Assembly: GCF_030704535.1 (NCBI RefSeq)
Contig: NC_081810.1
Coordinates: forward strand, 3,277,501-3,341,500
Reading direction: 5' to 3'
From: Vitis vinifera
Taxonomy: Eukaryota; Streptophyta; Magnoliopsida; Vitales; Vitaceae
Length of the DNA: 64,000 nucleotides
Shown: one piece after another, positions 3,929 to 63,212 of the stretch
Numbering within the stretch: position 1 is the first letter of the stretch
How the letters are laid out: each line of letters begins with the position of its first letter
Notes under the pieces: generated by a model
Database searches by the model: none
Told to the model about the DNA's origin: nothing
Seen by the model: the letters and a program-made list of their open reading frames with translations, nothing else
Program-made: the position numbers and the translations under genes

Positions 3929-6900
3929 TCAGCAAATTGGAAGAGGAGTCCCATCCCAATCATTGAGACATTTGAGCAGCGGATCGATGATCTTCCCCTC
4001 ACATATTGCAGAGAACACCTTATCAAACTCCTCCCCTGGCGAGGTAACCTTTTCTCCTGTCAGAAACTCAGTCCCTGACTCTTCCCTCACAAACTTGTAC
4101 AGAGGGTAGGACCTGCACTCCTTGATGCGGTTTGGAATGGCCAGATTCCCATTATCAAAGGCAATTCTCGTGCTCTCCACGTCTTTAGGCAAAAGGGTCT
4201 TCAGTTCTTCCTCAAATGCCCCAATCTTGAGAAAGATTGAAGTACTTGAATTCCTCAAATCCTCGTTGTTCATCAGCGCATGATCAACCAGGACTTGCCT
4301 TAGGTTTTGCATCAAGGGGTATGTTGCACTGCATGGGTCATCGATGTAGGCAAAAACGTGCTCGCGGTCTACTACTTTAAGCAAGTCCTTCTCGCAGAAT
4401 CTAGACGGGTGAAGCTCCCCATTGATCCCAATGGTTAGCACCTTTTTGGCCACTTGGCTCACTGTGTTCTTGACTGTGTTCTTCAAGTTCTCCTCCAAAT
4501 GCCTCAAATCAATAGCCTGGCAAAGTGCCACCAGGTAGGTTGAGGACATGAGCTTTAAGATGTCAATTGCTTCTTCCGTTTTTCGCGAAGAGATCAATCC
4601 TAAGGAGTTCACATCCTGGTTGTGTTGCTCAGCGCTCTGAACATGATTGGTGACTGGGTTGGCTAGGAATTGGAGCTCAGAACAATATGCTGCCATTGCT
4701 ATCTCAGCACCCTTGAACCCATAATCCAGACTTGGATTCCTTCCACCAGAGAGATTTGAGGGCAACCCATTGTTGTAAAAATCGTTAACCAGCTCAGAGA
4801 ATTGCGCAAACATGAGCTTCCCAATGGAGGCTATTGCTAATCTGGTGTTGTCCATGGAAACACCAATTGGGGTACCCTGGAAGTTCCCACCATGCAAGGC
4901 CTTGTTCCTTGACACATCAATCAATGGGTTGTCATTCACCGAATTGATCTCTCGTTCTATGGACTTCGTTGATGTTCGAATAACTTCAATCTGAGGACCC
5001 AACCACTGGGGTGAAGTCCTAAGAGCATACCGATCTTGCTTGGGCTTCTGGAGGGGATCGATCTCGTGCAGCATCTGAGCCGCTTTAACATAAGCGCTTC
5101 CATCCAAAATGTGTTCCATAATAGCCGCAGCTTCAATTTGTCCCGGATGGTGTTTCAATTTGTGCGTCAAATGATCAGTAAACTCTGGCTTCCCCTGCAT
5201 AACCTCAGCAAATATAGCCGACAAAACTTCTGATAAAACAGCAAGTATGTTAGCCTCAAAGAGAACTGTTGAAGCCAAACCAGACCCTACTGCCGTGCCA
5301 TTAACGAGTGCAAGACCCTCCTTAGGCTGCAACTCAAAGAACCCTCCATCAATTCCGGCAAGGCGAAAGGCTTCCTCAGCATTGAGGGACTCTCCGTTAG
5401 GCCCTACGGCCCTGGAGTTAGGCCTGCCGGTGAGGAGACCGGCAATGTAAGAAAGAGGGACGAGATCACCAGAGGCACTGATGGTGCCACGCAGAGGCAA
5501 GCAAGGACTAATGTTGGCGTTGAGGAGCTTAACGGTGGCTTCCAAGATCTCAAATCTGATGCCTGAGTATCCTTGGAGGAGGGTATTGATCCTCACCAGC
5601 ATTGCTGCTCTTGTCGCACTGTGAGGCAATGTGTGGCATGACTCTGTTCCCTTCCCAAATATTCCAGCGTTCAAGAATCTGATTCCACCACCATGTTAGC
5701 ATCTAACCTCAAGTTTTTGAAAAAATCAAGATTGGTCTTCTCTATTCACCCGATCAATTCGAGGAAGAACATTACCGTTACTCCCATCAATTGATGACAC
5801 AATGCAATCCACATTTAGACTTCTGTACCATTATTTTTGTATCATTTAATGTGGCAGCTGACATGCCCCTGTCTTATAATTATTTTAATTTTATTTTTAT
5901 AAATCCCTACTTGCATTAAAATCAAATACCAACATTTATAAGACAAAATTCACATCAGAAATGACAAAAAGTTATGATTAAATTACACATGATGATCTAA
6001 CCAAATAAGCTTAATGTTAAAAATTCTAATGGGACGACTTTTAAATTAAATAAATAAAATTAACTTATTAAAAATATAAATTTATTATTATACTTCATTG
6101 AAATAAAATATTATTTAATAAAAATTATGTAAAAGAAATTAATCATTAATTGTAACAACATCTCCCACTTTTTTTTTTCACCAAAAAATCATTAATAAGC
6201 CAAAGAAATAAAAACGTCACGTGACTCTCGACAGAGAAACAATTTTTATTTTTGTAGCAGTAATGGAAAAACATAGTGTCCTTTACTGTCATGGCACGTG
6301 AGACTTGGTTGCATGAAAATTTATGGATTCAACTGACACGGCTCCTACGGTCCTACCACGGTGCCACCATTTCCTTTTGTGACCAACCCTATCATATCTT
6401 CTGAGTCTTGGGTTTTACATACATATATAAAGGGAAAGAGATAATTAATTAATTAAAGTAAAATCAGTTTAAATGCATTATGCCACGTAAGCTCTGCCTG
6501 CAACTGACTCCACATTGAGTGAGAAATTAATTCCACCCATGACCACCCACATGTCTGGACTCCAAATCTTATGGGGATCAAAAAATTAATTCTTTAATAC
6601 CACTTGGGTTCACGTATATATTCTCTCCAAACTTGTCCTAAATATTTATGAATTGTTTGCTCTAAGAACTAAAAACCCAACTCAGAAACGGAAGAATTTA
6701 AGGAAAATTTCATGGGAATGTAACGTATTAGGTTTAATTACCTGATCAGTTCTTTCTGAAGAGCATTTCCTTGTTTGGTTCTTCTATGGGAAGTCGCACC
6801 GAACCCGGTAGTCACCCCATAACTGTCGGTCCCTTGGTTCATGCTCTCCATCACCCAGTTGCTGCTGGCCTGCACCCCGGCCCTCGCCGACTCCGACAGT

Positions 6901-7286: not shown

Positions 7287-7454
7287 GAGGAAACGTCTCA
7301 AAGAGTGTTGGGTGGGGAACTTGGGAGAGAGGGGGTGTTAGTTGAAGGAGACTCGTGGCCGTTTGATCTTCATGGAATCTGAGGGCTGCGGGAGAGACAA
7401 GTCGATATGAGTTCAGAGCGCATGAGGCTTGCATTTACCCGTCAAATCTGAAGG

Positions 7455-7461
7455 GGTTGGT
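7455..7461 (-). promoter_or_regulatory. AC-II element in PAL promoter
   Basis: ACCAACC on the minus strand, about 170 bp upstream of the TATA box, inside a C-rich stretch CACCACCAACCCC. This is the expected place and sequence for a MYB-bound AC element of a PAL promoter. Confidence 0.55.
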
Positions 7462-7499
7462 GGTGTGCGTGGTCTAAATATTCAGCAGTTCCCATCGTT

Positions 7500-8823
7500 C
7501 ATTTATTATTGTTTAATAACAATAATACCAATAAATAATCAAATTTGTCAAAAGAAATTATTTATCTTCTTTTCCTAAAATTGTAAAAAAATAAAAAAGT
7601 TAAGAATTTTTTTTTATTTTTTGGAAAAAATTGCAAAAAAAAAAATTAAAAAGCAAAGCTCTAGAAATTCTAAAGATATATATATATTTTTAATAAAAGC
7701 TAAGAAAAAAGGAAGAAAAAAAAAAGATAAAATTGTAAAAGTCTTTTTCTCAATGAAAGGGAATTGAAATGCTCTTTTTGGATAAAATCATAAAAATCCT
7801 TTTTTTTAAGTAAAAAAAAAAAATCTTTTTCTTTAAGAATAAAAATTATTTTTCATTTTCTTGTAAATAAGAAATAAGGTTGAATTTTTGGTAAAGAAAT
7901 TTGTAAAAAATTATATTTTTCATAAAATTGAAAAATATTTTTAAAAAATATAAAATCCTGATTAAAATATCTTCTAGCAAAAAAAATTCATAAAACAAAT
8001 CTTTTTCAATAAAAGACAATCAAAATTCAAATATTTGTACAAAATCCTTCTTTAGAAAAGCAAAATTCTTGTCAGATCAAATTATAAAATAAAATAAAAT
8101 AAATCTTTTTTTTAATAAAAGTTAAGTAAAAATCCCTTTTTGGATAAAATTATAAGATTATTTTTATTGGATTTTTTTTTAAATAAAATTATTTAGATAA
8201 AAATATTTTGTAACTTTCTAATTTTATTAATTATTTTTTAACAATAAATTTAAAATCTTTTTTTTTTTTTTTTTTGTGGGCAAGGGACAAGTTTACTTAA
8301 GAACAAGAGCATGCAGTTGGGGGCCTTTTAATTCATTTAATCATATGGGGAATGCAAACATGTTACAAAACAGCAATTTTAGCTGAAAAAAAGTCTCAAT
8401 CAGACAGGTGTTAATTCTGAAATAAAAAGGAAGAAAATAAGCATAAATATGAAGATTTTGGGGATAATGCTGATTGATAACAACTTGTGCAAGTGGAATA
8501 TTTTAATGGGAAGACCAAAACCAATGTATGCTTAGATTAAGTAGGTAAATCAAATATATAGATTATCCCCATTCCCAAAAGCTGATGGGTTGGTGATCAA
8601 ACAATGTGCTAGCTGCTCCACCTCCACCCTCCGTCTGAAGTAGATGAAAGGCCAGCAGCCAGCCACAATAAATAATAGAGCGAGGGTGGCATGTACTTCT
8701 GAACAACTACCGCTCTATAAAGTATAAACTTCAAGAAAATGTATTTTAAACATGGTTTTCATGAATTTATCGTAAGATAATTGCGATATCTCACATTAAA
8801 TAAAGAAGAAAGTTTCTAATATC
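7500..8823. other. AT-rich PAL upstream DNA, no gene seen
   Basis: Mostly A/T runs, including a T17-18 run near 8256-8275. No coding signal or recognisable repeat ends were found. Confidence 0.5.
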
Positions 8824-14810: not shown

Positions 14811-16780
14811 CACTACTCCTCATCCATCATGCTCCAAATGATCTCCAACCAATCTCAAGTGTCACTCATATGCAAGCTATCAAACACAATGTGTGATATT
14901 ATAGCCTTAGGGTGGTCTTAGGACTCAAGACGTAACGTAAACTAGGGTAATAAGGTGAAAGAAATGAAAAGAAACTAGGCTAAAAAATCTCAATGATAAA
15001 AATCCAAATACCCTTCATGTATGAGATGCAATGCATAGAAAACCTAGATTTTAGTTTGTTTATTTATTTATTTATTTTTAGGTAATTATTTGGGAAATAA
15101 GTTGTCAATAGGAGCATGTTTTACTCTTTTTACTTCTAATATAAAAACTCCAATTTTAAGTTTAGAAAAAAAAAATGAGAGATTTTTTTAAGATTCAATA
15201 AAATATTGCTTTTTATTTCTTTGAAATAAAAAAAAAATTGATTCTTTCCTATTGTTTTATGATTTGTATATGTGAGAACACGTGGATAAGAGTCTAAAAA
15301 ATCATCTTGAGGTGAAATATAAAAACTTAGGGGCAAATCAAAAGGGAAATAATGGGTGAAATCAAATTAATAATGGAATTAATGAAAGGTTAGGGCATCA
15401 ATATTGAAATCAAAATACCCTCTAAAGTTAGTTTGAATGGCACAATCCTTATTCCTTCGTACTAGAGATTCTTGGTCTTAATTCATAATTATTTAAGATT
15501 TTATCATTATCATCTACCCTAAGGTAAATCTACATTCAATAGTAAAAGCTTAAAAATCTTGTGTAAACCCAAATTTCATCTCTATTCAACTATTAGGTAA
15601 TTCAAAATAGAATAAAATAACAAAAGATAAGATATAGATCAACTCTGGGATATGGAAATTAGGTTGATTTCGTTAAACTATGCATTATGATTTCCCTAAA
15701 ACTAATTAAATTATATACCATTTGTTTTGCCTAAAGGTTTGACTTTATATTCACTTGATTTCTATGTCATAATCATTATGTAGGAGAGATGATGGACAGG
15801 TTCAAAGTTGGATTTTGGAACCCCTAATCACGAATAAAATTAATAATTAATAATTATTTTTTGATTTAAATAGGTTTATTTTAAGAAATTTTTATTCATA
15901 TTTTATTCCAATTTATTTAAATTAGGTTTTTTTTTTACCTTTATCAAATAATTAAAACCAATTGAACACGTTAGATTTGATCTTATAGGATAACAACTCG
16001 AAATACTATAAAAGTGTGGTAACTTTATCTCTGATTTTCTTCGTCAAGTTATCATGTATGTATTTAGGCTTTAATATTTTAGTTACAAAGGAGATTTATG
16101 TTGAATAAAAAGTGGATGATAGACTTAGAGGGTGTTTATTTATTTTTAACTTTTTACAGTTTATTTTCAAACTTAATGTTGTTTGTTTTTCTATTTTTTA
16201 ATGACTTATTATAAAATTTTTACTAAATAGAAAATGCCAAAATATTTGGTTTTTTCTAAATAAAAAAAAAGTAATATGTCAATTTTTTTTACTTTTTAAT
16301 GTTTAAATAGAAATAAAATACTACAAAAATAAACAATTTAACACTCAACGCTATTAAGTATTAAAGTTCTATTTAGAATTTAAAAAATAAAAAATAAACA
16401 AACATCACATTACTTCTAGTTGAGTCTAAGGGCATTTTTATAGTCTTTAAGCTCCGTGGTTGAATGTCAAGGTGCAAACACTTTTCAAAATTGTCCACCT
16501 TTTGCATGACTTCTTTAATATGTTTCCAACCTTTAAGTCACATTTATGCCATTTAATCAAAGACTTGTACTTTTGTCAAGTTAGGTTACTAGGTACACCT
16601 ATTCCCTCTAGGTGGTATGGGATAGTAGGAGCAGGGTAGTGTTATGGGATAGTTAGTTTTTGATCCTTTCAAGAGAAATTGAAATGAAATTAAAGTTTGA
16701 CTATTACAACAAGAAACATATATAAATTGTCTAAATATTTTTATCAAAGTATGGATCATAGAAGAAAAGAAATAATAGTT
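14811..16780. other. AT-rich repeat-like intergenic DNA
   Basis: No gene was recognised. A TATTTATTTATTTATTT run lies near 15058-15075. An 11-bp direct repeat TATGGGATAGT occurs twice around 16617-16652. The texture resembles transposon noncoding sequence, but no ends could be placed. Confidence 0.35.
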
Positions 16781-17190
16781 TAGACCTTATTTGTAACTAT
16801 TTTTTAAAATAATTCTGAAAAAATAGTTTTTAAGAACAGTTTTTAAAAACTGTTTTATGATATTTTGTAGAATAAAAGTCTATTTGGGAACCTAAAATTA
16901 TTTTAAACCTATTTTTAATATTTTTAAATATGTTTTAAAAATCATTTTTATGTCCATAACTTTATTTTTAATCGTTATATATGTTTGTATAATTATTCTT
17001 TAAAACAATTTTCAAAAAACAAATGAAAATAACTAAAAAAATTCTCTGAAAACATCCTGATTTTTGTTTTCTGATAATAGAAAACATAAAGAAAACATAA
17101 AACAGTTTTTGATTGTCAAATGTGTTTTTTAGTTTTTTTATTCTAAAAAATATAAAATTGTTCTTGAAAACAGTCGTCAAATAAGACCTT
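16781..17190 (+). mobile_element. MITE, probable hAT-like family
   Basis: Imperfect terminal inverted repeats: left GACCTTATTTGTAACTATTTTT, right (reverse complement) GGTCTTATTTGACGACTGTTTT. The roughly 410-bp interior is AT-rich and noncoding. The block TTTGTATAATTATTCTTTAAAAC in the middle recurs as its reverse complement in the copy at 62609-62974, which shows that the two are members of one family. Target duplications cannot be called with confidence. Confidence 0.6.
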
Positions 17191-17924: not shown

Positions 17925-18169
17925 ATTGTAAAGTGTGGTTGTAGACCCTCCATTTTGTCTCTTTAGTATATGTCTTTAAGTTCACTTCCAGTGCTCCACA
18001 GTAGTTTTTGGTGGCCCATTACTACTCATGTAACTTATCTTTTTTGAGCCACTTTGGAGACTTTGGTTGAGAGGTTTATCTGGCCCCACATTATGACATT
18101 GGTTGCCTTTCAAGTTTAGACTACGTTTCACTTGGGTGCACTTTAGGTTAGACTTAGTTAGACCCACCT

Positions 18170-18640
18170 AGTCTCACCCTAGGCTCGTATAGGTATACCC
18201 GACCCATTAGGCACCACCTTAGGCCTATTTAGACACCTTAGGCCCATCTAGGTTCACTTAGGTCCACTTAGGTACACTTGGCCCATTAGGCACCACCTTA
18301 GACCCATTTAGGCATCCTAAGCCCACTTAGGTACACTTGGCCCATTAAACACCATCTTAGGCCCACTTAGGCACCTTAGGCCCATTAAGGTACACTTGGC
18401 TCATTAGGCACCACATTAGGTTCACTTGGCCCATTAGGCACCACCTTAGGCCCATTTAGGTACACTTGGCTCATTAGGCACCACCTTAGGCCAACGTAAA
18501 CACACTTGGCCCATTAGGCACCACCTTAGGCTCACTTAGGCACCTTAAGCCCATATAGGTACACTTGACCCATTAGACACCTTAGGTCCATCTAGGTTCA
18601 CTTAGGCCCACTTAGGCACACTTGGCCCATTAGACATTCT
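18170..18640. repeat. Minisatellite, about 40-bp period with 20-bp subunits
   Basis: About nine copies of CCCATTAGGCACCACCTTAG separated by variable CCCACTTAGGTACACTTGG-type subunits. The clean units are 40 bp long; others carry an extra subunit of about 20 bp. The frequent TAG makes the plus strand noncoding in the repeat, and the period is not a multiple of three. Confidence 0.85.
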
Positions 18641-22498: not shown

Positions 22499-24200
22499 AT
22501 GAATCCTACTACTATTACAGGCTATTTGTCTGATATTGAATAATTAAGTGGGACAAATTTTAAAAAATGGAAGGAACAAATTGGAATTGTTTTTGGTTGC
22601 ATGGATTTAGATTATTCCTTAAGAGAGCTTACACCCACAAAGCCTACTTATGAAAGTACTAATGAACAAAAGGCTTTATATGAAAAATGTGAGCGTTCTA
22701 ATCGCACGAGTCTAATGATTATGAAAGGTTCAATCACTCCTACAATTAGTAGAGCAATCTCGAATTCATATAATGCAATGAGTTATATTAAATCAGTTGA
22801 AAAACAATTCTAAGGAACTTCCAAGTCCTTGGCAAGTACTCTTATGATCGAAATGATAACAATGAAATATGATAGTCATAATGGTGTACGTGAGCACATC
22901 ATGAAGATGAGTGACATGGCTTCTCAATTGAAAGGAATGGACATGGCAATTTTTGAAGGCTTTCTTGTTCACTTCATAATGACTTCCCTTCCTTCACAAT
23001 TTGGTCATTTCAAAATTAATTATAATACTCAGAAGGATAAGTGGAAAATGAGTGAACTAATTGTCATGTGTGTTCAAGAAGAAGAGAGGCTTAAAGTGGA
23101 AAAGCCTAATATGGCTCACCTCACTATTGGTCCAAATAAAAAAAAATCCTTCAAGAAAGGTAAAGGTAAGAAAAATAAGCAACGTAATGATGTATCTCAC
23201 AATGGGCAAAAGGACGAAAATAAGATACAATGTCATTTTTTCCATAAGAAATGTCACAAAAGAAGATATTGTTTTGGCTTTAAGGCTTGGTTGGAAAAAA
23301 AAAAAAAAAAAGTAAAACTTAATGCTTAGTGTCTTATGAATCTTATTTAGTTGATATACGACCAAACTCTTGGTGGATTGACACTGGTGCAAGCATTCAC
23401 ATAACGAATTCATTGCAGGGATACCTTACAAGCAAGAGACTAAGTAAATGAGAGAAAACCATTACTTTGGGAAATGGAACAAAAATGGAAATTGAGGCTA
23501 TTGGCACTCTTCGTTTAATTTTGGATACTGGTTTCATTATGGATTTAGTAGATACAATTTATGTTCCTGTTTTTACTAGAAACCTAATTTTAGTTCCAAG
23601 ACTTGATTCTTATGGTTATGAATTAATTGGAAATAATGGAGTTTCCTTGTTCTATAATTCTTGTTTGGTTGGCTCTAGCACGTTACATGGTAATCTTTAT
23701 TCATTGAATTTAGATTGCAAATATTCATAGTCTCTTTTATCTTATCATGTGTATGAATTCTCTAAAAAACGAAATCGAGTGAATGAAAATTCATCCATAT
23801 TGTGGCATAAGCAATTAGGTCACATTTCAAGAGAAATGATGAAACGTCTTATTAAAGATGAAATTTTGACTTCATTTGATTTTTCTGATTTTACTAGTTG
23901 TGTTGAATGCATAAAGGAAAAATACATTATAGTTAAGAAAAATGGTGTCTCAAGGGCTACTGAATTGTTAGAATGTATTCATTCTGACATTCGGGGACCT
24001 TATTCAATTCCAACTATCAATGGACATAAGTACTTTATTAGTTTTATTGATGGCTTTTCAAAGTATTCTTATGTGTATATTATTCATAAAAAATTTGAAG
24101 CATTAGATGTTTTTAAGATTTATAAAGCTAAGGTTGAAAATCAACTCAATCGGTGAATTAAAAGTGTAAGATCTAATAGAGGTGGTGAATATTATGGTAG
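22499..24200 (+). pseudogene. Ty1/copia gag-pol remnant, truncated within integrase
   Basis: The frame starts MNPTTITGYLSDIE and is broken by an in-frame stop at about 22541 and another at 22811. Gag continues to about 23330. The zinc knuckle (23229-23270) has lost its second Cys: C-x2-F-x4-H-x4-C instead of C-x2-C-x4-H-x4-C. A frame change follows a run of about 17 A at 23296-23312. Next come a protease motif WWIDTGAS (about 23371), the integrase zinc site H-x3-H..C-x2-C (LWHKQLGH..CVEC, about 23800-23915) and the start of the integrase core (HSDIRGPY, DGFSKYSY). Similarity stops at about 24200, before the reverse transcriptase. The break pattern means it cannot move by itself. Confidence 0.85.
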
Positions 24201-31854: not shown

Positions 31855-34800
31855 ATGGGAAGCAAATGGAGAAAAGCCAAGCTGGCCCTTGGATTGAATC
31901 TCTGTGTGTATGTTCCACAAACCCTAGAGGACTCGTCTCCGTCCATGGACGTTGGCAGAAGATATTCCGACGCCGTTTTGCTCTCGCCGTCGCTTTCTCC
32001 CCAGTCCCGAAGCTCCGACTGCCATCCGGCGATGCCGACGACGCCCACGCCGTCGTCTTCCGGCCTCCGGCTGTCAAAACACGGAACTAAGTCCTCTAAG
32101 GTATATTTTTCAAGCCCTTTTGGTGTTTCCTATTGAGATGAGTAGTGGAACAAATGCAGTTTTTTGCTTGGATGGAAATATTTAACCGACTGGTGGTATA
32201 CTTTGATCGTGGGCTAAGATTTGTTTGGCTGATTATAATGGTATTTTGATTTCAACTTTTGCAGTTTCTAAAGTAATTTTTTTTGCATATTTAGTGTCTC
32301 ATCTTCTCTGAATCTCTATCATGCTATAGAATATGTGATTGATTTTTTTATTTTAGGTACTCCAAAAATCTTCATCTATAATTATACCTGATATGTAAAT
32401 AGTGATTAATGTCAGTGAAGTGATTTCTTGTATTCAGAATCTGGCAATACGGTTGCTAAATATGTTTTCTTTCTTTCCCATTTTTCTCTTTTTGGTATAC
32501 AGTAATTGTTTCTTCTATCTGTATTGTTGTATTGCGGGGTTGATAAGGTGAATGTGCGATGTATGTGAATTTTGTGAAGATGGGTATTTGTTGTGATGTT
32601 GTTTTCAACCCTCTTTGGTTTGTGGAGATAAAGTGGAGTGTAGTCCCTTTAAGGACCATGGCCCTCTGGCTCATTAGAAAAGGAAAACTACAGTGTACCT
32701 TTCCTTTTCCACCCTCCCTTGAAGGGGAAAGTGGTTTGGCCGGTCAGCATAACTGCACTATACTCCCACCACCCTCTCTCTCTCTCTCTCCTTTTGATGT
32801 TAATTTTAGAAAAGCCTGTGGACCGTTGATTCTGAGCTTTCCTGCAACAATCTTCATCATGGAGAAAAGGGGAATTGGGAAAAAATTAAAAATAAAAATC
32901 TCACAGCAACTCATGATTTTCCCTTCTTTTCATGGATGGGCTTTATATATGTGTATATATTAATTCCTTTTCTTATTATCTTGAAAGCTTCATCATTAGC
33001 TTGAGTGTTGCTTGATTACCTTTGCTTTTTAAAAGTCTAATCTTTGACTGTTTTTAATTTCTCAATTTGTCCTCTTAAGATATTTTGACAACCTAGCATT
33101 TGACTTTTTTTTTTTCTTGGTGTAAGCTGATTTACAATGCCACCCCACCTATTTTAGTAAAACTAGGTCTAATTGAATTTTTTTTAATATGCCTATATTT
33201 TGGTATATATATATATATAGATAGGGTGTCTGCCTTCTGTTGCATCTTTTTATGCACCACTCTCAATAATAGAGCCATGTAGAGACACAGGGATCAGTCT
33301 TATTCTTAACACATGACAGAACAGTGACTTTGAATTTCACGACCGTCTAAGCATTGGGTTTGATGTTTGATTATTTACCTCATTTTTTTTTGTAATTGGT
33401 GATCATTTTATGCTTTACGTACAGTAATTCAGAGTTGCTAGTAAGTCATGGAGTGCCCTGTAGAGGTCAACCAGCTATCTGTTAGTTTGATGAGCTCCTT
33501 GTTTCCTCAAGACTATATAAATAACTAATTTCCATATCAATAGATTTTGAGATAAATTTATGTTTTATTTTGCTTCAAGTGAGATGAATTGATTTGTGGA
33601 AGACTTGAGATTGCTCCATTTTATTGAGTTTGATTTAAAGCAACCCTGTCACCATTCTCTCTATCCAAGGATGGATGCATTTTTGTGTTTGGGCTCCCCA
33701 AGGGGTTTATCTTATTGAAACTAGAAGTGAATTCCTTTGTTTTCTAAATGAATCATTTTAAATGAGACAATGATTATAAGTAATTTAGGAGTACGGTTGG
33801 GTTTTATGTACATATAAATTCCTCTTACTTAGTAAATGTGAATGTTGTTTGTGGTTTTTTGGTTATGCTTTTGATGTAACATTGCAGTTCCTGAAATGCA
33901 CCCTATGCTTTGCTTTCCTCACATGTATTTCTTTCTAAATCACAGAAGACATGTGCTATATGCCTGAACACGATGAAACCAGGCCAGGGTCATGCCATTT
34001 TTACAGCAGAATGCTCACATGCTTTCCACTTCCACTGCATTACTTCTAATGTAAAACATGGAAGCCAAAGTTGCCCTGTTTGCAGAGCAAAATGGAAGGA
34101 AATCCCCTTTCAGAGTCCTGCTTCTGATCTTGCTCATGGAAGGGCAAGAATCAACCCAGTAGATTGGGGCCACGATGATGCCTGGATGACTGTTCTACGA
34201 CAGCTCCCGTCTCCACGCCAAGACGCCAGTCGACACATTTCATCGCTTTTCCATGCCCATGAACCAGCTGTCTTTGATGATGATGAAGTCTTGGATCACC
34301 AGCCTGAGAGTACTGAGAGAAGTTCATCAACTCGAGATATTGATAACAATTCGATTGGAGCAATAGAGGTTAAAACATACCCAGAAGTCTCAGCTGTTCC
34401 AAGATCAACCTCTCATAATAACTTCACTGTTCTAATCCATCTCAAAGCCCCTCTTACAAGTGGAAGGCAGAATTCTGGTACAAACCAGACTAATATGCAA
34501 CCAACATCTCAGAGTTGTCGTGCCCCAGTTGACCTTGTGACAGTGCTTGATGTCAGTGGCAGCATGGCAGGTACCAAACTGGCATTGCTAAAACGAGCCA
34601 TGGGGTTTGTGATCCAGAGCCTTGGTCCCTGTGACCGGCTTTCAGTCATTTCGTTCTCCTCTACAGCTCGCCGACTCTTTCCCCTCCGTCGAATGACTGA
34701 TACTGGACGGCAGCAGGCATTGCAAGCCGTCAATTCTCTGGTTTCAAATGGTGGAACAAACATTGCTGAAGGTTTAAGGAAGGGTGCAAAGGTGATGCTT

Positions 34801-35889
34801 GACCGCAAGTGGAAAAACCCAGTTAGCAGTATCATACTGTTGTCTGATGGGCAGGATACATACACTGTCTGCAGTCCTGGTGGAGCCCATTCCCGAACTG
34901 ATTACTCATTGCTCCTGCCATTCTCGATTCATCGCAATGGTGGCACGGGTTTCCAGATTCCTGTTCATGCATTTGGGTTTGGTACAGACCATGATGCAAC
35001 CTCGATGCATGCAATCTCTGAAACCTCTGGGGGGACATTTTCCTTTATAGAAGCTGAGGGTGTGATTCAGGATGCATTTGCACAATGCATTGGAGGACTC
35101 TTAAGTGTGGTAGTGCAGGAGCTGCGAGTTGGAGTTGAGTGTGTTCACCCAAGTTTGCAGCTCAGTTCAATAAAAGCAGGAAGTTACCATACTAGTGTGA
35201 CACCTGATGCAAGAACAGGCTTTATTGATGTTGGAGATTTGTATGCTGAAGAAGAGAGGGATTTTCTGGTAAACATCGATATTCCAATTAATGGATGTGG
35301 GGATGAGATGTCTTTGTTTAAGGTTAGATGTGTTTATAGAGACCCAATCACAAAAGAGTTGGTGAAGTGTGGAGAAGCAGATGAGGTGAAGATCCAGAGG
35401 CCTGAGATAGCCAGACAAGTAGTGGTGTCCATGGAAGTGGACAGGCAGCGAAATAGGCTCCGAGCAGCAGAGGCAATGGTGGAGGCAAGAGCTGCTGCTG
35501 AACGAGGTGATCTTACAAGTGCAGTTGCTGTCCTTGAGAGCTGTCGAAGGGCATTGTCAGAAACTGTTTCTGCAAGAGCTGGTGACAGGCTATGTGTTGC
35601 ACTGGGTGCTGAGTTAAAGGAGATGCAAGAAAGGATGGCAAACAGGCGCATCTATGAGGCCTCTGGAAGGGCGTACGTGCTATCGGGGTTGAGTTCACAC
35701 TCATGGCAAAGAGCAACTGCACGAGGTGATTCCACTGATAGTGCAACCCTTCTGCAAGCTTACCAGACCCCATCCATGGTGGACATGTTGACCCGATCAC
35801 AGACGATGTTTGTGAGTAGTGGTGCTCCATCACCTCATCCACCTATCCGACCTGCTAGATCATTTCCTGCCCGGCCGCTGCCAAGGTAA
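31855..35889 (+). CDS. WAV3: RING-H2 and von Willebrand A domain ubiquitin ligase, WAV3 family
   Basis: Probable E3 ubiquitin-protein ligase of the WAVY GROWTH 3 family, which in Arabidopsis acts in root gravity response. Exon 1 is 31855-32100 (MGSKWRKAKLALGLNLCVYV.., 82 codons), intron 32101-33945 (GT..AG, phase 0), exon 2 33946-35889; total 729 residues. Residues 85-130 form a RING finger: CAIC, then ECSHAFHFHC and CPVC, giving C3H2C3 spacing. Residues about 279-460 form a von Willebrand A domain: the MIDAS loop DVSGSM starts at residue 284, with a later NGGTNIAEGL threonine and ILLSDGQDT aspartate. The C-terminal part is a WAV3-type Vint-like region and an Arg/Ala-rich helical stretch. The start follows the first in-frame ATG after a CT-rich leader. 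The gene lies in tandem with the downstream NCRK gene. Confidence 0.93.
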
Positions 35890-61149: not shown

Positions 61150-62480
61150 ATTTAGTAGAATTTTGGTAGTTAAAAGATAATTATAAGAATAAATAAAAAT
61201 GTGAATTAGATCGATGAAAAGGTAATGCCAATTTTTATTAAAAAATATTTATAGTTTGATAAGTTTCCTAAATATTAAGTTTTAATTAAAAAAAATTTAA
61301 GGGTTAAAACCATCCAAATATGACTCAAAATCTATTTAAATATTAATGTTGATTTAGGAATGATATTTATGAGAAATAAGAAAAATTATTCAAATATATT
61401 TTTCTTAACCCTTTTGAAAAGGGTCTCCTTAACTTTCAAAATTAATACAAAAAGAATTCCCACCTGAGGACATTTGGAAAAAGGATTCAAGCTTCAAAAT
61501 TTTCAAAATTCAAAAGCCAAGTTCAAATATAACTTCGAGTGTACACAGCTTTGGTGAGGGTTAGCCAAGTCTAAGTCCAATCAACCCTAACCCAACTCAA
61601 AATCTAACCATAAGTCCAAGTCGTGATTCACTAAGGTCAAGTCGAATGGAGGAAGACTCAAATTAAGTTTCTTATCAAAAGAGTCAAAGGATTAGTGGAG
61701 CTTATACCTCATTCTTGAAATTAATCAACTTTCAATTTGGCCCCTAGTTTTCCTTCAAGAAAGTGTGTACAAATTGTTGTATTGAGTATTTTTCTTAAAG
61801 AAAAACTGGTGACCAAATTGAAATTTAACTAATTTCACGAATGAAGTATAATCTCTAATTAATCCTTTGATTCTTCTTATAAGAAATTTGACTTAGGTCT
61901 TGACTCAACTTAGATTTTAGTATGTCTCGACTTGGGCTTGGACTCTGGAGTGTCTTAGGTTAACCTTGAACTTTTGTGTCAAGTTTGAACTTTGGTTTGT
62001 CTTTAACTTGATCTTAAAATTTGACATGTCTCTGGATCTCAAATTGAAGACACCTCGAATTTGATCTTCTTTAGTCTTTAAATCTTCAGAGGCTTTAAAG
62101 AACTCTTTAAATCCTTAAGAGAAACTTTCAAGTTTTCTCAATTCTAAAAATATCTTCACTTCTCACTCCTCTTTGTATATTTTGAAAACTAAGGAGACTT
62201 CTCTATTTATAGGGCTTGAGGAATACATATTTGAATAATTTTTATTATTCCTTACAAATAAAGTTAACATTTAGAGAAATTTTGAGATATATTTGGATAG
62301 TTTTAACCTTTAAAATAATTTTTTAATTAAAAATTAATATCTAGGAAACTTGGCAAAGCATATTGGGTTACTTTTTAATCTATTTTTAATAAGAATGAAT
62401 ACTTACCTCTTCATCTATCAAATCATTTTTATTTATTTTGATAATTATATTTTAATCACCAAAATTCTTATTTCTTTATC
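61150..62480. repeat. Foldback element: 1.3-kb long inverted repeat
   Basis: The left arm (about 61150-61762) and right arm (about 61790-62480) are inverted copies around a loop of roughly 27 bp near 61776. Matching blocks, left against reverse-complemented right: AAGTTTCCTAAATATTAA / AAGTTTCCTAGATATTAA (61261, 62351); GGTTAAAACCATCCAAATAT / GGTTAAAACTATCCAAATAT; GTCTCCTTAACTTTCAAAAT / GTCTCCTTAGTTTTCAAAAT; CAAAGGATTA near the loop; and, outermost, GAATTTTGG..AATAAATAAAAATG. The arms differ by about 60 bp of indels and are most diverged in the middle. No coding frame is present. Confidence 0.8.
62203..62211 (-). promoter_or_regulatory. TATA box in the right arm of the foldback
   Basis: TATAAATAG on the minus strand, in the context CCCTATAAATAGAGAAG. 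It points towards the loop. The matching place in the left arm has CCCTTTTGAAAAGGG and no TATA box. Confidence 0.45.
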
Positions 62481-62608
62481 TAATTTGAAAACAACTCAGT
62501 TTCCTTTTATATATAAAATCAAACGTATGTCATAATTTCATTTGATAGAATTATTTTCAAAGTGCCAAAAGTTTATAATGATTTTTTATATGAGATTTTG
62601 AATTGATT

Positions 62609-62974
62609 GCCCAATAGCTTATTTGACAACTATTTTTTAGAACAATTTTCTATTCTTCATAACAAAAAAACAAGAGAACACGATTAATAACTGAAAACTG
62701 TATTTTGTTTTTTATTCTTAAGAATAAAAAACAAAGTGTTTTCAGATAATATCTTTTAGTTGTTTTCATTTGTTTTAGAGAATTATTATACAAACATATA
62801 GAATGGTTAAAAATAAAATACATAAAAATTATTTTAAAAACATATTTAAAATTATTAAAAACATTTTACATTTTTAAATAGATTTTTGTTTTATAAAACA
62901 TTATAAAATAATTTTCAAAAACTATTTTTAAAAAATTGTCTGTTTTCGAAAACAGTTACTAAATAAGACCTAAT
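62609..62974 (-). mobile_element. MITE, second member of the hAT-like family
   Basis: The left end AGCTTATTTGACAACTATTTT and the right end, in reverse complement GGTCTTATTTAGTAACTGTTTT, are imperfect inverted repeats like those at 16781-17190. The interior GAGAATTATTATACAAACATAT is the reverse complement of the interior of that copy, so this one lies in the opposite orientation. It ends at the start of a direct duplication. Confidence 0.6.
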
Positions 62975-63212
62975 CTTTCATTTCTTGTGTTATTAAAATG
63001 TCATCCTTAGATCACTTTACCACAGACTCGTGTGTTATTGTTATTAAATAAATAACCCAATTAAAATTAATCATAATGTTGAAAGGTGTAATAGGACCCA
63101 ATCTTTCATGTCTCGTGCTATTAAAGTCCCCATCCTTGGATTGCTTTACGGCACTTGTATGTTATTAAATAAATGGAAGATGGATAACCCAATTAAAATT
63201 AACTATAAGTTT
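62966..63212. repeat. Tandem direct duplication of about 115 bp
   Basis: The first copy, 62966-63078, and the second, 63096-63212, share AATCTTTCAT, TATTAAA, CATCCTT, GCTTTAC/ACTTTAC, TTATTAAATAAAT and AACCCAATTAAAATTAA. The second carries a small insertion (GGAAGATGG). The repeat abuts the MITE. Confidence 0.65.

Follow-up and report, generated by a model that had tools for sequence, protein, structure and literature searches.

The window analyzed here, a 64-kb stretch of Vitis vinifera DNA, contains a foldback made of two inverted arms of LTR-like sequence that face each other across a short loop (Table 1). Among the other features of the window are a phenylalanine ammonia-lyase exon at 3929-5695 on the minus strand (best match, solved PAL 1w27) and a frame at 33895-35889 with 100% identity over 401 residues to a V. 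vinifera WAV3-like protein. A 171-aa open frame at 22814-23329 (+) resembles a Copia gag piece by eye, and a tandem array of CTTAGGCCCATT-like units, with start-to-start spacing often 40, occupies positions 18158-18636. Just outside the right LTR-like unit, a MITE-like repeat with an internal palindrome (62685-62751) lies at 62618-62986; its inverted copy is found at 16767-17185 (72% over 421 columns). A structured-RNA gene was rejected, as no Rfam family was found in the window at gathering scores, and a protein search with a 65-aa frame at 61920-62114 (minus) returned no relative.

Structure of the foldback

Self-BLAST paired 61157-61454 with 62169-62468 (72% over 319 columns) and 61612-61762 with 61791-61939 (76% over 153 columns), both in inverted orientation. 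The middle of the arms (approximately 61455-61611 versus 61940-62168) aligned poorly. A global alignment of the arms had 468 matches, 105 mismatches, and 166 gap columns, and no 19-mer was common to both. The best local arm-to-arm alignment scored 320, compared with a maximum of 50 for 100 Markov-shuffled pairs, and the foldback is thus real and far above chance, with two inverted arms and a short loop as the original prediction had described. The folding check proposed there agreed: the minus strand of 61157-62468 folded at -425.6 kcal/mol, well under its dinucleotide shuffles (n=25; mean, -246.7; sd, 9.7).

Each arm was positioned on a 1011-bp reference copy of the unit from C1 (L009). In both window units the 5' end is gone while the 3' end survives; the two units meet 3' end to 3' end, separated by no more than ~10 bp. 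Position 62468 is not the right end of the right unit, since homology with other copies reaches ~62568, approximately 100 bp past the inverted repeat. On the left, the outer match begins at 61157, and the 5' LTR match does not extend into the flank of that position.

Table 1. Features of the foldback locus, in positions of the 64-kb window
Feature	Position	Strand	Description
Left arm, LTR-like unit	61157..61771	+	~188-1010 of the L009 (C1) copy, by BLAST; without 5' end
Lost TATA box place	61413..61421	+	Left arm reads TTTGAAAAG; multiple alignment of 38 copies
Left unit's 3' end	61763-61771		Near GTGTGTACA; placed by eye
Hairpin loop	61763-61790		28 nt; contains the facing 3' ends of both LTR-like units; exact ends uncertain
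Right arm, LTR-like unit	61778..62568	-	~93-994 of the L009 (C1) copy, by BLAST
TATA box TATAAATAG	62203-62211	-	Probable family promoter motif; right arm, kept
Foldable stretch from TATA box	61430..62181	-	Predicted; 165 arm-to-arm pairs

The repeat family and its LTR-like anatomy

The V. vinifera assembly (495.6 Mb, 21 contigs) was searched with the foldback and with one family copy, giving at least 105 matches (40 of 92 candidates scored) and at least 66 matches (40 of 142 candidates scored), respectively. The window itself lies at C6:3277501-3341500 of this assembly and is nuclear DNA. The arm is a dispersed LTR-like repeat, with a family unit of ~1 kb. Twenty-four loci were read together with 1.5 kb of flanking sequence; 22 of them had no inverted partner within that distance, and the unit was present twice in opposite orientation only at the window locus and at one locus on C3. 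When the inner arms and loop served as the query, all 18 candidates were scored and the junction was crossed at two places, the window locus and C3:7625226-7625483, so the unit of the family is the single arm. Dispersed copies are what the original prediction had foreseen for an old foldback transposon, but nearly all of them are single units and not foldbacks; the search for similar foldbacks suggested there yielded the one additional tail-to-tail pair on C3. On C17, family pieces in opposite orientation lie 7 kb apart, and an unrelated Ty3/Gypsy element (L068, C17:12952000-12961999), with LTRs at 1762-2733 and 7297-8232 that are 91% alike, is located between them.

The second tail-to-tail foldback (L069, C3:7623000-7628000) has arms that are 67% alike over 1400 columns. 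As at the window locus, TATAAATAG is retained in its right arm and altered in its left arm. It covers 265-968 and 105-987 of the C1 reference copy and has its own spacer. Since the outer ends (188/93 in the window, 265/105 on C3) and the spacers differ, the two do not appear to be copies of one mobile foldback.

Several features of the family point to long terminal repeats. Of the 12 places at which the 5' end can be read, 7 have a purine-rich tract directly before the unit start, and in one of these 7, C17, the tract is weak. In transcript orientation the unit often starts with TGTAG; it begins with TG at 5 of 12 places, and CA ends are found in some copies only. BLAST revealed the unit as a direct pair on C9 (L066), with ~2.9 kb between the copies, and on C8 (L067), with ~0.74 kb between them, and the leader that follows the 5' copy on C9 is present also on C8 and C19. 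Gag-like coding lies ~0.8 kb downstream in the same sense on C9 (Retrotrans_gag, E 0.0026, 18.4 bits) and on C19 (E 0.03, 15.0 bits), with both scores below the Pfam cut-off of 24.1 bits. These two pieces are 67% identical; the one on C19 scored better against DUF624 than against Retrotrans_gag, and a protein search with the C9 piece found no relative. Neither reverse transcriptase nor integrase, the pol of the family, was found in the fetched stretches. The direct pairs, purine tract, leader, and gag-like coding suggest by their anatomy that the unit is an LTR, and the family is probably an LTR retrotransposon, Ty3/Gypsy-like as judged by the weak gag match. One family LTR on C19 (L015, C19:10767411-10770816), with a purine tract upstream and leader and gag-like coding downstream, looks as if it were shared by two tandem elements. 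The 5-bp sequence TTGTT on both sides of the C1 copy is a doubtful target duplication: in the window left arm and on C18, AAATTGTT likewise stands after the unit. At the window copies themselves, neither a polypurine tract nor an internal region nor a flanking duplication is present.

Promoter motif and predicted hairpin transcript

The motif TATAAATAG occurs three times in the window, compared with one occurrence expected from shuffles, and is therefore weak evidence by itself. In the alignment of 38 segments of the family, the TATA place reads TATAAATA in 20 of the 29 readable copies, including the right arm, although these 20 are not independent because several are close copies (C16). The inward TATA box of the original prediction, which is directed towards the loop, is real, and this agreement suggests that TATAAATAG is probably a true promoter motif. 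The TATA box is probably an inherited LTR promoter.

A transcript driven by this TATA box would start near 62181, ~30 bp downstream of the motif. The stretch from 62181 to 61430 has a predicted fold of -228.9 kcal/mol, compared with -163.7 kcal/mol for shuffles (n=20; sd, 5.8), and its longest perfect helix is 17 bp. The corresponding values were -271.7 versus -202.0 kcal/mol when the predicted transcript was extended to 61157, and -321.9 versus -248.7 kcal/mol when it was extended to 60800. A structured hairpin RNA from the locus is thus possible on these models. The TATA box lies ~260 bp inside the right arm, so such a transcript cannot fold over the whole arm: the arm contributes at most ~400 nt, and its outer 290 bp, which form the best-paired part, lie upstream of the promoter and outside the predicted RNA. 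The claim that a TATA-driven transcript would fold into a long hairpin holds for the stretch below the promoter, which folds well, but not for these outer 290 bp.

Selection for RNA pairing was considered and rejected. The 61 transitions between the arms correspond to 30 G-U pairs in the minus-strand transcript and 31 in the plus-strand transcript, giving no sign of pairing preserved in one RNA. None of the 732 21-mers of 62181-61430 matched any of 60 further fetched records, a mutually overlapping set that covers part of the family only, whereas 43 of 1392 21-mers from the outer part, which would not be transcribed, did match. It is therefore unlikely that the locus guards in trans against its own family. 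siRNAs with mismatches could still act on the family.

Origin of the pair and comparison with known systems

Of 573 aligned bases, 105 are not the same in the two arms; 61 of these changes are transitions and 44 transversions, which gives a two-parameter distance of 0.21 as calculated by hand. At a plant substitution rate of 1.3e-8 per site per year, the arms would be about 8 million years old if one event made both, and older at slower rates. By this divergence the arms are not young, contrary to the suggestion of a young MIRNA locus. Over the outer segment they are 81% identical, compared with a mean of 74% over 702 pairs from 38 segments, and 22 of the 702 pairs, the arm pair counted, are at least as alike. 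Identity between the two LTRs is 72% on C8 and 75% on C9. Of the 37 other segments, none is closer to the left arm than the right arm (81%), and a segment on C4 (L017, 82% over 265 columns) is just as near to the right arm. A tree of the 38 LTR segments was nearly star-like and did not group the arms as sisters (p-AU as sisters, 0.35); this tree is without power, because it also failed to join the LTR pairs of C8 and C9 that served as controls.

We conclude that the locus very probably consists of a pair of old LTRs, both truncated, that belong to a single dispersed family of grapevine LTR retrotransposons and are arranged tail to tail. The two LTRs would be inverted relative to each other, with the 3' (U5) end of each pointing at that of the other. 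Most likely, either an element inserted next to a copy that was already present or a single inserted element was rearranged, and internal sequence and 5' ends would have been lost later. Each LTR would have had its own inward promoter, with the TATA box kept on the right and lost on the left. Read-through from the right LTR would produce an RNA in which the right R-U5 comes first and the left R-U5, in antisense, second, and this RNA could form an imperfect hairpin with ~330-400 nt per side. The locus likely has no present role beyond possible incidental siRNAs.

Instead of two separate insertions, one LTR may have been duplicated locally in inverted orientation, or both LTRs may derive from one rearranged element, but this is rather unlikely. 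The left arm is closest to the right arm and the pair is slightly more alike than most, which would also fit a single event, and the tree did not reject sister arms. The equally near relative of the right arm on C4 argues the other way, as does the failure of the arms to group as sisters, a failure shared by the control LTR pairs.

Two readings that would give the foldback an identity of its own appear far less probable. It is very improbable that the locus is a transposon of the foldback or Mutator-like type that has long terminal inverted repeats and carries inward promoters at its ends. Such an element would account for the long arms and short loop, for an inward promoter as in the Mutator ends described in passages of PMC3310237, and for the presence of a second foldback on C3, and an 8-bp near duplication, TATTTAGT/TATTTCTT (6/8), flanks 61157 and 62468. 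That duplication is not significant, however (8 bp, p 0.07; 9 bp, p 0.73; 10 bp, p 0.23), and the family unit runs on past the supposed right end. The lack of an inverted partner at most loci, the different unit positions at which the window and C3 foldbacks end, with different spacers, and the direct pairs with a purine tract, which fit an LTR, also oppose it. The foldback transposon was rejected on the end-duplication tests and the single family copies. It is just as improbable that the foldback functions as a hairpin-siRNA locus, or is a young MIRNA, transcribed from its own TATA box. The retained TATA box and the predicted fold of 62181-61430, far below its shuffles, favor such a locus, but the transitions are split evenly between the two strands, with no sign that arm pairing was preserved, and the many arm differences, the lack of an Rfam match, and the short longest helix do not fit it.

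The special, self-contained double-stranded RNA locus of the original prediction was not supported either: the arms are dispersed LTR-like copies, the left TATA box is lost, the divergence of the arms is about that of other family members with no G-U bias, and the best-paired part of the right arm lies upstream of the promoter. Nothing found points to a dedicated double-stranded RNA gene. There is only the slimmest chance that the tail-to-tail pair is a standing hairpin source that uses the surviving LTR promoter to make siRNAs against its own family; it would then be a guard resembling Mu killer that arose by chance from two LTRs, with the C3 foldback as a second one. The broader caution is that two LTRs of one family, facing each other and with an inherited promoter, can account for a long foldback that has an inward TATA box. 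If such pairs are read through, they would offer a simple route to hairpin RNA against a retrotransposon family.

Sequence patterns from the locus were also searched in other collections. Two patterns gave no matches in viral_contigs, and one gave none in genome_contigs. A 21-base pattern matched five bacterial contigs in genome_contigs; these matches were rejected as chance, and otherwise only stretches of 16-26 bases match the foldback. The locus was not met in the literature searched, which is not full proof that it is undescribed.

Among known systems, Mutator elements carry inward promoters in long terminal inverted repeats at their ends, according to passages of PMC3310237, and the window locus is like Mutator-like elements in having an inward promoter inside an inverted repeat. 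Unlike them, it has no terminal duplication and no common outer ends, and the units of its family are not inverted pairs. Grapevine Mutator-like copies have 9-bp duplications when these are found, as stated in part of PMC2528002; none was seen at the ends of the window foldback. Mu killer of maize is presented in sections of PMC3440606 as an inverted MuDR derivative proposed to make hairpin RNA, and the resemblance lies in inverted transposon sequence that could yield such an RNA. The Mu killer hairpin was proposed to be made by read-through, and the inverted part of Mu killer is transposase sequence. The window locus differs in its internal promoter, its decayed arms, and the absence of the 21-mers of its predicted hairpin from the other fetched copies. 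Compared with the solo, nested, and adjacent LTRs of grapevine, the window units are distinct in being tail to tail and 5'-truncated, with no internal region between them. The family itself resembles grapevine LTR retrotransposons in its dispersed ~1-kb units with a central TATA box and a preceding purine tract, in its direct pairs at two loci, and in the weak gag-like coding downstream.
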